Source of the DNA: Desulfuromonas sp.
GTDB taxonomy: Bacteria; Desulfobacterota; Desulfuromonadia; Desulfuromonadales; Geothermobacteraceae
Direction: 5' to 3'
Length of the DNA: 64,000 nt
Assembly (NCBI GenBank): GCA_002868905.1
Contig: PKUA01000029.1
Location: 1 to 64,000, forward strand
This document shows positions 2,247-6,631 of this stretch, piece by piece. The position numbers were made by a program, and so were the translations under genes. Position 1 is the first letter of the stretch, and every line of letters starts with the position of its first letter. The notes below the pieces were generated by a model that saw only the letters and a list, made by a program, of their open reading frames with translations, was not told the origin of the DNA and ran no database searches.

Positions 2247-2492
2247 TTGCGTTCACCAAGTCCCGTACGGCTCAAGGAAACATGGGTCCTCTGCTTCATC
2301 CTGGGCATCATCATGCTCAACTACCCCTTCCTTGAGATATTCAACAAACCGGTGACCCTGTTCGGGATCCCCCTGCTTGTTCTCTACCTGACATTCGGCT
2401 GGCTTTTTTCTATTTTCGTCATTTTTCTTTTCTCCCGCTATCTTGGCTCAGTTTCAGCCGAATCCGACAATCATTCCGGGGATGCCGAATGA
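2247..2492 (+). CDS. Small two-TM membrane protein preceding an SSS-type sensor
   Basis: An 81-residue protein with two hydrophobic helices (VLCFILGIIMLNYPFLEIF and LLVLYLTFGWLFSIFVIFLF) and an acidic C-terminal tail. The TTG start at 2247 is supported by a GGAGG sequence about six bases upstream. Its stop overlaps the next start in an ATGA, so translation is coupled to the large transporter-phosphatase gene. Small two-helix proteins encoded before sodium:solute symporters are often accessory subunits (DUF485/DUF4212-like), and that role is inferred here from position and topology. Confidence 0.75.
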   Translation: MRSPSPVRLKETWVLCFILGIIMLNYPFLEIFNKPVTLFGIPLLVLYLTFGWLFSIFVIFLFSRYLGSVSAESDNHSGDAE

Positions 2493-5400
2493 TTTCGATC
2501 CAGCTGATCACCGTTCTCTCTATCGCCTACTTCGTCATCCTGTTCGGCGTAGCGTATTACGCGGACTGGTGTAGAGAACACGGTCGCAGCCTCATTGCCA
2601 ACGCCCACGTCTACTCACTCTCAATCGCGGTCTACTGTACGTCATGGACCTTTTATGGCAGTGTCGGTCGGGCGGCGACCAGTGGCATCGATTTCCTTCT
2701 GATCTACCTTGGACCCACCCTGATGGCGTTTTCCTGGTGGTTCCTGCTCAGGAAAATGGTCCGCGTCAGCAAGGAACAGAACATCGTCAGCATCGGTGAT
2801 TTCATTTCAAGCCGTTATGGGAAGTCCGCCTTTCTCGGTGCCATTGTCACCATTTTCGCCGTCATCGGAATCATGCCTTACATCGCCTTGCAGCTGAAGG
2901 CGATTTCACAGTCATTTGACTTATTGACCCTTCCACCGGAAGTTTTCCGTCAGGGGGGAACCCATCATTTTCAGGCCATATCGCAAACCATCGATACGGC
3001 TTTTGTCGTTGCCCTGCTGCTCGGGCTGTTCGGCGTCCTTTTCGGCGCCAGGCACCTCGACGCCTCCGAAAGGCACGAAGGCCTGGTCGCAGCTATCGCC
3101 CTTGAATCGATTATTAAAGTCATCGCTTTTGTCGCCGTCGGTATTTTCGTAACCTATGGCCTGTTTGATGGATTCGGTGATATTTTCAGTCGTTTTCAGG
3201 AGACTTTCCCGGAACGAGCTTATCTGTTGCAGATAGGAGGCGAAAACACCAGCTACGCCAGGTGGTTCTCCTTGACCTTCATCGCCATGATGGCTTGCAT
3301 GTTTCTCCCTCGGCAGTTCCACATCATGGTCATCGAAAATTCATCGGAAGAGCATGTTAAGTCGGCCATGTGGAGATTCCCCCTCTACATGTTCGTCATC
3401 AACCTGTTCGTTATTCCCATTGCGCTCGGCGGGCTGATTCTCTCTAACGGGGACACCTCCCAGGCTGACTATTTCGTTCTCAACCTCCCGTTGACAAACA
3501 ATCAGGAATGGCTTGGCGTCCTGGCATTTCTGGGGGGATTTTCCGCCTCGGCCGGCATGGTCATGGTCTCTTCAGTGGCCCTCGCCACGATGATTCTCAA
3601 TCAGCTTGCCATGCCGGCGATCCTGAAGTTTCGCCTCGAAGTTGCAGACTTCTCCATTCTATTAATCAACCTGAAGCGCTTCTGTATTCTCGGGGTCATC
3701 TTTCTCGGATATCTTTACTACAGGATCATCGGTGAGAGTTATGCCCTGGTCAATATCGGCCTGATTTCCTTTATCGCCGCGACCCAATTTGCCCCCTCCC
3801 TGATTGGCGGCCTGTACTGGCGTCGAGCAACCCTGAAAGGAGCCGCCACAGGACTCATTCTCGGCTTCCTGATCTGGTTCTATACACTGCTGATCCCTTC
3901 TTTTGTCCGGTCCGGATGGTTGCATAGCGATATCCTTGAGAACGGACTGTTCGGGCTCTCTTACCTCCGACCGTTGGAACTGTTCGGTCTGTCCGGTTTC
4001 GACATCTGGACCCACTCTCTGTTCTGGACACTCTTCTTCAACGTTGGCGCCTTCCTCACTCTGTCGCTTATGTCAGAGCCGGAAAAACAAGTCCTCGAAC
4101 AGGTTCCCAAGTTCGTCGACACGTTCAAACCGCGCAGGGCCGAGCCGGAGAAACAACGCATCAGCAAGGCACCGACCATTATGGAATTCGTCGAGCTGAT
4201 GACGAAGTTCATCGGAGAAAAACAAGCTCATGCAGCCATCGCCGAATACCTTGGAGACCGGGAGATCGACCAGCGCGGAAGTTTGTCCGAATATGAGTTG
4301 CCGAGCCTGAAACGTTTCACCGAACGGACTCTGGCCGGTTCGGTCGGGGCAGCTCCGGCCAGGATCATCATTGAAAACTACCTGGTGACACGCGGCAGCA
4401 AAATGGAGGACGTGTTCGATATCTTCGGCTCGGTCAACCTGAGTCGGACATCGAGCCGTGAACAACTTGGCGTCCTCTACGAATCCGCCCGCGTCGTAGC
4501 GAGCGGGGCAAAGCTGCAAAGGATCATGGATGACATCCTCGACCTGATGGTGCAGCAGTTCAAGCTCGATCTTTGCGTCATACGGATGCATGATCCGTCT
4601 ACGGACAATCTCGTTGTCCACAGCCAACGGGGCATGAGCTCCGAACACCTTGGCCGGTCGGAACGGGAGCTGACGATGGAAACATACATCGGGCAGACCT
4701 TCCTCTCCAACGAACCGGTTGTCGTCAACGACACTGATTTCATGAGCAAGCCAATCTCCGCACAGATCATCCACCGTGAAGGGATCAAATCATTCGCCCA
4801 CGCTCCGATTACCATCGAAGGTGAGCCGATTGGGGTCCTCTCGGCTTTTTCGAAAACGATCAAAGGAATATTCACCGATGAGTTTGTTGAAATGTTTCTG
4901 AGCCTGGCCGGACAAGTCGGTGTCGCCTGGCGGAACAATCAACAAACCATTAAGCTGCTGGTTGCCGCCGAACAACAGAAAGAGATGGAGATCGCCAAGA
5001 CCATTCAGCTCGGCCTTCTTCCGAACTCGGTGCCGAAATTACCCGACGTTCATCTCGGAGGCATTTGTGTCCCGGCCAAAGATGTCGGAGGAGACTATTA
5101 CGACCACATGATGAGTTCGGCCCACCAACTCGACCTGGTTGTGGCTGATGTCTCCGGACACAATGTCGGCGCCGCCCTGCTGATGGCAGAAACCCGCACT
5201 TATATCAGGGCGCGCGCTCACAAGATTCCGACCGCCAAACAGGTCATGGCATCACTGAATGAATTTTTCTATGCCGACCTCTCCCGCGCCGAACTGTTTA
5301 TTACCATGTTTTACGCGCGCTACAATGCGAACCTCAAACGACTCGTTTACGCAAGCGCCGGACACTGCAAGCCGATTCTCTATCGCCATGCCACCAAAAG

Positions 5401-5710
5401 CTGTGAACGACTCGATGCCGAAGGACTGATTTTCGGAATTCTTCCTCAAGTCGAATTCGAAGAGCGGCACACCTATCTTTATCCAGGGGACCTGTTGCTG
5501 CTTTTCACTGACGGCATTGTTGAGGCCGAGAATGATCTCGGAGAATTTTTCGGCGAGGAACGCCTGGCTCGACTGGTGTGTGATTCTGTCAGCCTTTCAC
5601 CGCAAGAGATGATCGATCGGATTCTTAACCAGGCCCGGCTCTTCACCGGCACCCGACACTTCAAGGACGATGTCTCGCTTGTGGTCATGAAAGCGGAGGC
5701 GAAGAATTGA
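2489..5710 (+). CDS. SLC5/SSS transporter-like sensor fused to GAF and PP2C (SpoIIE-type) phosphatase
   Basis: A 1073-residue fusion. Residues 1 to about 530 form a 12-13 helix sodium:solute symporter fold resembling the N-terminus of CbrA (VYCTSWTFYGSVGRAATSG). Residues about 570-650 contain RTLAGSVGAAPARIIIENYL, like the STAC linker of CbrA-type kinases. A GAF domain covers about 660-815. The C-terminus (about 830-1070) is a SpoIIE-type PP2C phosphatase with VGGDYYD, VADVSGHNVGAALLMA, FTDGIVEAEN and KDDVSLVV, so the metal-binding Asp residues are present. In CbrA-like proteins this position holds a histidine kinase; here a Ser/Thr phosphatase replaces it. The following STAS and HATPase genes are its expected substrate and counter-acting kinase. 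Whether the symporter part still transports a solute or only senses it is unknown. Confidence 0.92.
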   Translation: MISIQLITVLSIAYFVILFGVAYYADWCREHGRSLIANAHVYSLSIAVYCTSWTFYGSVGRAATSGIDFLLIYLGPTLMAFSWWFLLRKMVRVSKEQNIVSIGDFISSRYGKSAFLGAIVTIFAVIGIMPYIALQLKAISQSFDLLTLPPEVFRQGGTHHFQAISQTIDTAFVVALLLGLFGVLFGARHLDASERHEGLVAAIALESIIKVIAFVAVGIFVTYGLFDGFGDIFSRFQETFPERAYLLQIGGENTSYARWFSLTFIAMMACMFLPRQFHIMVIENSSEEHVKSAMWRFPLYMFVINLFVIPIALGGLILSNGDTSQADYFVLNLPLTNNQEWLGVLAFLGGFSASAGMVMVSSVALATMILNQLAMPAILKFRLEVADFSILLINLKRFCILGVIFLGYLYYRIIGESYALVNIGLISFIAATQFAPSLIGGLYWRRATLKGAATGLILGFLIWFYTLLIPSFVRSGWLHSDILENGLFGLSYLRPLELFGLSGFDIWTHSLFWTLFFNVGAFLTLSLMSEPEKQVLEQVPKFVDTFKPRRAEPEKQRISKAPTIMEFVELMTKFIGEKQAHAAIAEYLGDREIDQRGSLSEYELPSLKRFTERTLAGSVGAAPARIIIENYLVTRGSKMEDVFDIFGSVNLSRTSSREQLGVLYESARVVASGAKLQRIMDDILDLMVQQFKLDLCVIRMHDPSTDNLVVHSQRGMSSEHLGRSERELTMETYIGQTFLSNEPVVVNDTDFMSKPISAQIIHREGIKSFAHAPITIEGEPIGVLSAFSKTIKGIFTDEFVEMFLSLAGQVGVAWRNNQQTIKLLVAAEQQKEMEIAKTIQLGLLPNSVPKLPDVHLGGICVPAKDVGGDYYDHMMSSAHQLDLVVADVSGHNVGAALLMAETRTYIRARAHKIPTAKQVMASLNEFFYADLSRAELFITMFYARYNANLKRLVYASAGHCKPILYRHATKSCERLDAEGLIFGILPQVEFEERHTYLYPGDLLLLFTDGIVEAENDLGEFFGEERLARLVCDSVSLSPQEMIDRILNQARLFTGTRHFKDDVSLVVMKAEAKN

Positions 5711-5810
5711 ATTCAACCATGCCAACCGTAAAGCGGTATGCTATCATATGACTTGACTAACCCGCTGTCGGCGAAGGGTTTGAAAGACCTCAATATTTCA
5801 AGGAGAAACC

Positions 5811-6146
5811 ATGATTCTAAACATTGAAGAGCATGATGCCGCCGTCCTCATTTCCGTCAAAGAGGAACGCCTGGATGCTCACAACAGTGGTGAATTGAAA
5901 AGTCAGATGCTGAACCTGTTCGAAGAGGGGAAAACCAACCTGGTCGTTGATCTTGAAGAGGTCCGGTTTGTTGACTCTTCGGGGCTGGGTTCCCTGGTGT
6001 CCGGATTTAAAAATGCCAGCGCTCGCAATGGAAACCTTAAACTTTGCGGCCTCCAACCGCAGGTCAAATCGATGTTCGAGTTAACCCGCCTGCATCGCGT
6101 TTTCGAAATTTATCAGAATTCCAAGGAAGCGATGGAGAGTTTTTAG
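5811..6146 (+). CDS. STAS-domain anti-sigma factor antagonist (SpoIIAA/RsbV-like)
   Basis: A 111-residue single STAS domain. The motif RFVDSSGLGSLVSGFKNA contains the Ser (DSSGL) that is phosphorylated in SpoIIAA/RsbV proteins. In that family the unphosphorylated form binds and neutralises the HATPase anti-sigma kinase, and a PP2C phosphatase restores it. Both partners are encoded on either side (2489-5710 and 6206-6631). The ATG follows a good ribosome-binding site (AAGGAGA), and a 100-base gap separates it from the phosphatase gene, leaving room for a promoter of its own. Confidence 0.93.
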   Translation: MILNIEEHDAAVLISVKEERLDAHNSGELKSQMLNLFEEGKTNLVVDLEEVRFVDSSGLGSLVSGFKNASARNGNLKLCGLQPQVKSMFELTRLHRVFEIYQNSKEAMESF

Positions 6147-6205
6147 GCAACACCAACCCTCCGGGCTGATTTATTAATTTCCCGGCTTAAACCACGGGCC
6201 AGATT

Positions 6206-6631
6206 TTGAGAAGCGATTCTATCAAAATCGACATATCAATCCCCAACCATACTCGTTATCTCGGCATGATCGGGAAAATCGGGGAGGATGTTGCACGTGC
6301 TATTAAAAGCTACCCGGGGGACCGCGAAGAACTTGCTTATCACATCAACCTCGTATTGACCGAAGCGATGTCGAATGCAATCCATCATGCCAACGAGGGG
6401 GATCCGGACAAGAAACTCAGAGTCTCGATTCAGATTGACCAGGGCGTGCTGAGCATCCAGGTTCATGACCAGGGGCGGGGGTTCAACTCAGACCAGTTCC
6501 CGGACCCTGAACTGAAACACCTGGAGGAACATGGACGAGGCATATACATCATCCGTTCGCTGATGGATGAGGTCACTTACCAGAAAGTGTCCACCGGCCA
6601 TGTTCTGGAAATGACCAAGACCCTCTACTGA
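6206..6631 (+). CDS. HATPase anti-sigma regulatory factor (RsbW/SpoIIAB-like Ser kinase)
   Basis: A 141-residue GHKL ATPase. The N box is TEAMSNAIHHANEG, the G1 box is VHDQGRGF and the G2 box is EEHGRGIYIIRSLMDEV. The order and short length match RsbW/SpoIIAB kinases, which phosphorylate the STAS antagonist and sequester a sigma factor or another output protein. The start is TTG; no strong ribosome-binding site is visible, so the start is less certain than the domain. No sigma factor gene lies in the window, so the final target must be elsewhere or may not be a sigma factor. Confidence 0.9.
   Translation: MRSDSIKIDISIPNHTRYLGMIGKIGEDVARAIKSYPGDREELAYHINLVLTEAMSNAIHHANEGDPDKKLRVSIQIDQGVLSIQVHDQGRGFNSDQFPDPELKHLEEHGRGIYIIRSLMDEVTYQKVSTGHVLEMTKTLY

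Follow-up and report, generated by a model that had tools for sequence, protein, structure and literature searches.

Organization of the locus

We analysed a stretch of 64,000 nucleotides (nt) from a Desulfuromonas sp. genome (contig PKUA01000029.1), referred to below as the window, and describe here a four-gene operon at positions 2247–6631 that encodes a small two-helix membrane protein, a fusion of SLC5, STAC, GAF and PP2C domains, a STAS protein and an RsbW-like HATPase. The open reading frames (ORFs) of the fusion, the STAS protein and the HATPase lie where a prior interpretation of the letters by themselves (the sequence-only reading) had placed them, and the small ORF at 2247–2492 shares an ATGA overlap with that of the fusion. 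The features of the locus are as follows:

2174–2202, + strand: sigma70-type promoter-like site TCGACA-17-TATAAT (11/12), a consensus match about 45 nt upstream of the first gene
2237–2241, + strand: Shine-Dalgarno-like GGAGG read from the sequence, five bases 5' of the TTG start at 2247
2247–2492, + strand: small two-helix membrane protein, 81 residues, TTG start; CbrX-like in position and topology, candidate partner of the SLC5-STAC sensor
2489–5710, + strand: SLC5-STAC-GAF-PP2C(SpoIIE) fusion, 1073 residues (ORF, Pfam, CbrA alignment, AlphaFold2, fold search)
2501–4090, + strand: SLC5 transporter-like domain, residues about 5–534, with K210 aligned to K196 of the CbrA Na2 site
4178–4390, + strand: STAC four-helix bundle, residues 564–634 (CbrA alignment and AlphaFold2 model)
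4514–4927, + strand: GAF domain, residues 676–813, 48% identical to the Geobacter sulfurreducens GAF structure 2qyb
4877–5017, + strand: continuous helix in the model, residues 797–843, from the last GAF helix into PP2C; candidate signalling coiled coil
5021–5695, + strand: PP2C/SpoIIE phosphatase domain, residues 845–1069 (Pfam, conserved residues, model)
5811–6146, + strand: STAS antagonist, 111 residues, with the DSSGLG phosphorylation motif (Pfam and alignment)
6206–6631, + strand: RsbW/SpoIIAB-like HATPase serine kinase, 141 residues, TTG start (Pfam and alignment)

Domain composition and catalytic residues

Pfam searches identified a SpoIIE domain at residues 879–1068 of the fusion (E 6e-50) and a GAF domain at 676–813 (E 2e-15), together with STAS (E 2e-21) and HATPase_c_2 (E 1e-26) domains in the two partner proteins; no SLC5 model was reported in the Pfam scan of the fusion. 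Residues 6–634 align with the solved SLC5-STAC chain of CbrA, 10ed_A (E 5e-69), and the AlphaFold2 model (mean pLDDT 82.6) presents transporter helices, the STAC bundle, the GAF domain, the long helix at 797–843 and the PP2C domain. The STAC helices (564–575, 577–588, 601–619 and 621–634) follow the last membrane helix, and the STAC segment LAGSVGAAPA is aligned with LSGLMGPSVA of CbrA. Fold searches matched SLC5 symporters, 2qyb, which is the solved GAF domain of a Geobacter sulfurreducens relative, and the PP2C domains of RssB, Rv1364c, SpoIIE and SiaA. Alignment, model and fold search thus bear out the earlier view that the N-terminus has an SLC5/SSS fold and a STAC-like linker as in CbrA-type kinases. 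The GAF domain, which the sequence-only reading included in its proposed checks but omitted from its stated reasoning, is also present.

The metal-binding aspartates of the phosphatase are intact: D869 and D887 are conserved in 63/63 copies, and D1008 and D1061 in all 62 copies long enough to contain them. Where CbrA-type sensors have DHp-CA, the fusion carries a SpoIIE/PP2C domain and is not a histidine kinase, in agreement with the PP2C output first proposed from the sequence and now backed by Pfam and these residues. In the partner proteins, DSSGLG of STAS is invariant (n=29), as are E53, N57, D88xGxG and G110RG of the HATPase N, G1 and G2 boxes (n=32); the HATPase has no DHp and is the only strong HATPase_c_2 protein of the window genome. 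With these motifs and the Pfam matches, the assignment of the next two genes as a STAS antagonist (DSSGL) and a HATPase kinase stands.

Conservation of the operon

A scan of species genomes yielded 80 fusion loci, and a survey of the phylum covered 394 genomes, 19 of the window's class (Geobacter and relatives) and 375 others. The operon is present in 70 of the 80 loci. In every operon locus that its contig covers completely, the fusion is accompanied by small gene, STAS and HATPase in constant order, and the overlap of small gene and fusion measures 4 nt in 51/69 loci. A full-length fusion and a kinase (about 178 bits or more) occur in 19/19 class genomes, while in the 375 genomes outside the class no full-length fusion was found and the top kinase score was 92 bits. 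Since most loci carry the operon and every class genome has fusion and kinase, the arrangement is not due to chance: the operon is a real and conserved signalling unit. The same loci answer the check named in the sequence-only reading, whether fusion homologues have STAS and HATPase genes as neighbours, and on this sequence evidence PP2C, STAS and kinase are likely to be wired as a partner switch. There is no conserved fifth gene; the gene 3' of the kinase lies mostly on the opposite strand and belongs to several families.

The most divergent class member is locus L175 (genome G239), with a fusion 43% identical and a kinase that is likewise the most divergent. A record titled Chloroflexi (L015) holds an operon of typical Desulfuromonadales form, almost the same as that of L014, and is probably misbinned.

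Comparison with known systems

The operon combines two known kinds of system and is apparently unstudied. Its front end resembles Pseudomonas CbrA (SLC5-STAC-PAS-histidine kinase) over residues 6–634, in the Na2-site lysine and in the small overlapping upstream gene, but CbrA has a histidine kinase output instead of PP2C and PAS instead of GAF. The PP2C/STAS/HATPase trio, with intact motifs and a helical linker to PP2C, recalls RsbU/RsbP-RsbV-RsbW and SpoIIE-SpoIIAA-SpoIIAB; unlike those switches, it has a transporter-type sensor and no sigma gene in the operon, and the scores of the window proteins fall far short of the equivalog cut-offs for RsbW, SpoIIAB and SpoIIAA. Actinobacterial SSS proteins with GAF, PP2C_SIG and HATPase_c domains were noted by SMART domain search in a 2021 review (PMC7918813). 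Likened by description only, they also join SSS with GAF and PP2C, but belong to another phylum and carry the kinase in the same protein. Our literature search turned up no study of these actinobacterial SSS and PP2C fusions or of the present operon, and nothing on the Geobacter orthologue beyond structure 2qyb.

One front end with several outputs

In other Desulfobacterota classes, the query matches proteins over residues 6–841 at 50–52% identity, and the C-termini of six such relatives are all histidine kinases (6/6 read). These SLC5-STAC-GAF-histidine kinases share the front end and the same small upstream gene with our operon, but the kinase replaces PP2C and no close STAS/HATPase pair was found for them. 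In a tree of SLC5-STAC-GAF regions the PP2C proteins cluster together (98) next to the histidine kinases, which group weakly (61), and the long outgroup branch was flagged; because of both we claim no direction for the output swap. Two plasmid relatives extend the series: a Cupriavidus protein has a histidine kinase output, and in Azoarcus sp. KH32C (L185, 2784–6180) the SLC5-STAC front end is followed by GGDEF-EAL, with the same small gene upstream, which by its sequence identifies this fusion as a cyclic di-GMP output version of the front end.

The small two-helix protein

The sequence-only reading suggested that the small gene could encode a sensor subunit, and our searches support it as a conserved partner family of SLC5-STAC proteins. 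A profile of the small protein finds small ORFs just upstream of the Desulfobacterota GAF-kinases (E about 1e-21 to 1e-27), and further ones upstream of the Cupriavidus kinase (8e-14), the Azoarcus EAL protein (1e-14) and a Paracoccus kinase (2e-7), the last again with a 4-base overlap. The family, as its sequences define it, accompanies SLC5-STAC sensors whether their output is a kinase, PP2C or GGDEF-EAL, and has a motif of roughly N-Y/F-P-x4-F-N ... G-x-P ... Y ... W; its predicted two-helix structure is of moderate confidence (mean pLDDT 70.9).

The experimental parallel is CbrX of Pseudomonas, likewise a small two-helix ORF upstream of and translationally overlapping its sensor gene. Cryo-electron microscopy showed CbrX as a hairpin bound to the CbrA SLC5 domain, and it is dispensable for growth on histidine (PMC13022988); earlier work saw only translational coupling (PMC6591292). 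Two of our profiles (A2 and A5) gave no hit at E<=10 against PDB chains, an outcome that is uninformative about homology to CbrX, which may not be among these chains. Pfam and NCBIfam returned only sub-threshold matches for the small protein, among them DUF3311, DUF4212, DUF485 and DUF997, which we take to be small partners of SSS transporters. A DUF3311 protein adjoins MctP (PMC9100948).

The predicted solute pocket

The CbrA pocket maps to Y49, T51, W53, T54, F69, I72, Y73, A266, A269, R275 and F428 of the fusion, and the Na2-site lysine, K210, is invariant in 63/63 copies (proton-coupled type). Mean pairwise identity among operon copies is 0.91 at these 11 positions versus 0.61 for the whole SLC5 domain, as opposed to 0.57 versus 0.62 in nine non-operon copies. 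When positions matched for their conservation in operon copies were drawn 20,000 times, none of the draws reached the observed difference between the two kinds, and nine-row subsets of operon copies keep a pocket identity of 0.91. The nine non-operon rows share ancestry, and on the tree about four changes from one kind to the other are required, so the divergence of the pocket represents few independent events.

Most of the SLC5-STAC sensors in the comparison, hybrid kinases included, have the same pocket as the operon copies, while CbrA and RpuS differ. Residues of CbrA that depart from the window protein (in brackets) are found opposite T54 (A56), I72 (C74), P76 (V), A266 (F248), A269 (S251) and R275 (H257). 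The hybrid kinases CrbS (acetate) and RpuS (pyruvate) share the SLC5-STAC front end, but their output is a hybrid histidine kinase and the RpuS-type pocket has S54 and H275. Plasmid hybrid kinases, likened to CrbS/RpuS by architecture and not verified as CrbS, share nearly all pocket residues with our protein. An assignment of acetate through this identity was dropped, as the pocket looks like the common SLC5-STAC state; from the residues one may reasonably guess at a short organic acid, for instance acetate, as the ligand, but go no further.

Extra copies of the fusion

At 10/80 loci the fusion has no small gene, STAS or HATPase adjoining, with the downstream side cut off in L029 and L045. 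Of the ten, three have TRAP transporter genes in their vicinity and two an acetyl-CoA hydrolase/transferase gene. The former (L011, 2689–8979; L073, 5746–11960; L026) have the fusion without its own STAS/HATPase beside DctP, DctQ and DctM; the latter are L026 and L047. In two further extra copies (L133 and L134) the small gene is present and no STAS/HATPase was found adjoining. The L133 copy has an in-frame TAA and the L045 copy is split in two reading frames, which may reflect decay or assembly errors.

Twelve genomes reached through fusion loci contain one to six fusion matches each and a single close kinase in 11/12; in the twelfth, which is fragmented and has fusion genes broken at contig ends, no kinase was found. 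The kinase is encoded elsewhere in 8/9 examined genomes that hold a non-operon copy, and PP2C identity is not lower in such copies. The sequences suggest that the extra copies, with their other pockets, probably feed a single STAS/kinase pair.

The window's own genome also encodes a second SpoIIE phosphatase of 278 residues (L002, 1438–2274; C38:96316–96900), overlapping an ORF that is PilZ-like by eye, and this phosphatase could act on the same STAS protein. Two STAS-like ORFs of this genome (L104 and L106, on C37) stand beside CheA/CheW-like chemotaxis genes.

Target of the proposed switch

In accordance with the sequence-only reading, no sigma factor is encoded nearby: all sigma-factor matches of the window genome are on other contigs. 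Its proposal of a partner switch acting on a sigma factor or another target holds in part, in that synteny, intact catalytic residues and strict co-occurrence all speak well for the trio. On the other hand, a dedicated alternative sigma factor as class-wide target is not supported, since our survey of the sigma70 family (sigma-54 lay outside it) found no alternative member common to all 19 class genomes. With members assigned from their length and score and not phylogenetically, the inventory varies: G130 has only RpoD- and RpoS-type matches, G239 has RpoD and three shorter ones with no RpoS-type, and RpoD alone is in all 19. The target would thus be RpoD, sigma-54, a lineage-specific factor or a non-sigma protein.

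It is quite plausible to us, though we would not count on it, that the kinase acts on something that is not a sigma factor, such as a diguanylate cyclase or anti-sigma relay of the kind in SiaABCD or Hsb systems. It agrees with a conserved neighbourhood that holds no sigma gene and ends at a gene on the other strand in most loci, with the lack of a class-wide alternative sigma70-family factor and with the match of the PP2C fold to SiaA, but no conserved partner gene appears either, and the survey covered the sigma70 family only. We consider it unlikely that the kinase acts on RpoS as its anti-sigma factor, with the operon as a general stress and starvation switch. The window genome has an RpoS-like gene beside an nlpD-like gene and 18/19 class genomes show a second RpoS/RpoD-type match, yet G239, rated 100% complete, holds operon and kinase with a single such match, RpoD by length, which weakens RpoS as class-wide target; we saw no RpoS gene adjoining any operon. 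Control of housekeeping RpoD seems to us a little less likely again. The Rsb network of Chlamydia is proposed to work in this way (PMC4552016). RpoD is the only sigma70-family factor shared by the 19 genomes. As all bacteria have RpoD, finding it there carries little weight.

Proposed mechanism and alternatives

We consider it probable that the operon is a transceptor phosphatase system which drives a partner switch whose target is encoded elsewhere. The SLC5 domain, which the small two-helix protein probably holds, would bind and perhaps transport a small solute; STAC and GAF would relay its state through the helical linker to PP2C, with GAF perhaps adding a cytosolic signal. Active PP2C would then strip the phosphate from the STAS serine, and dephosphorylated STAS would capture the HATPase kinase, which would release its target or stop acting on it. 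The scheme builds on what the sequences themselves show: the domains present, catalytic and phosphorylation motifs that are intact, an operon and a pocket that are conserved, a single kinase in each genome and strict co-occurrence. We infer the reaction direction, the ligand, the role of GAF and the sharing of one STAS protein.

Several points weigh against this scheme. As a chimera with the SLC5 of CrbS showed, CbrA does not need its own SLC5 domain to transport histidine in order to signal (PMC5715377), and CbrA stripped of its membrane part remained functional (PMC6591292); SLC5 may therefore serve as transporter or scaffold in the fusion, with GAF doing the actual sensing. The pocket positions were mapped from one structure at 31% identity, the ten non-operon loci were gathered by similarity to the window protein and are a lower bound, not a random sample, and neither a sigma gene nor another conserved partner gene that could be the target was found in the conserved neighbourhood. 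The alternative in which GAF reads a cytosolic signal, with SLC5 as a transporter expressed alongside it that also scaffolds dimerisation in the membrane (the case made for CbrA), has a real chance, though we lean against it. In its favour, CbrA without membrane domains needs its PAS domain to signal (PMC6591292), the CrbS SLC5 can stand in for that of CbrA (PMC5715377), GAF is retained in all copies and transport alone could equally explain pocket conservation; against it, the pocket is the best-kept part in operon copies and diverged in the others, while GAF varies freely (0.33–0.63 identity) among operon copies. That PP2C is functionally unconnected to the adjoining STAS and HATPase genes appears very improbable: ten loci do have the fusion without these genes beside it, but co-occurrence is strict (19/19 versus 0/375), gene order is constant and nearly all examined holders of a non-operon copy have the kinase elsewhere in the genome.

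The transceptor phosphatase scheme can be extended, as a tentative proposal, to a class-wide core switch in Geobacter and relatives, in which paralogous SLC5 phosphatases with different pockets, some of them by TRAP or acetyl-CoA hydrolase/transferase genes, would dephosphorylate one STAS protein paired with one kinase, the target being RpoD or a non-sigma regulator.

Significance

In the operon a transporter-type sensor is joined to a serine-phosphate partner switch, two modules that normally occur separately, and the combination is fixed in a bacterial class of environmental and electrochemical importance. In RsbU, activation of PP2C through a coiled-coil linker was reported, and such linkers were proposed to let sensors exchange among phosphatases, kinases and cyclases (PMC12143880); one front end found with histidine kinase, PP2C or GGDEF-EAL is a natural test of this exchangeable toolkit. 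The pocket, fixed in operon copies and changed elsewhere, makes the ligand question directly testable. If several sensors do share one switch, it would integrate several nutrient signals, and electron-donor sensing would set a global state of the cell.

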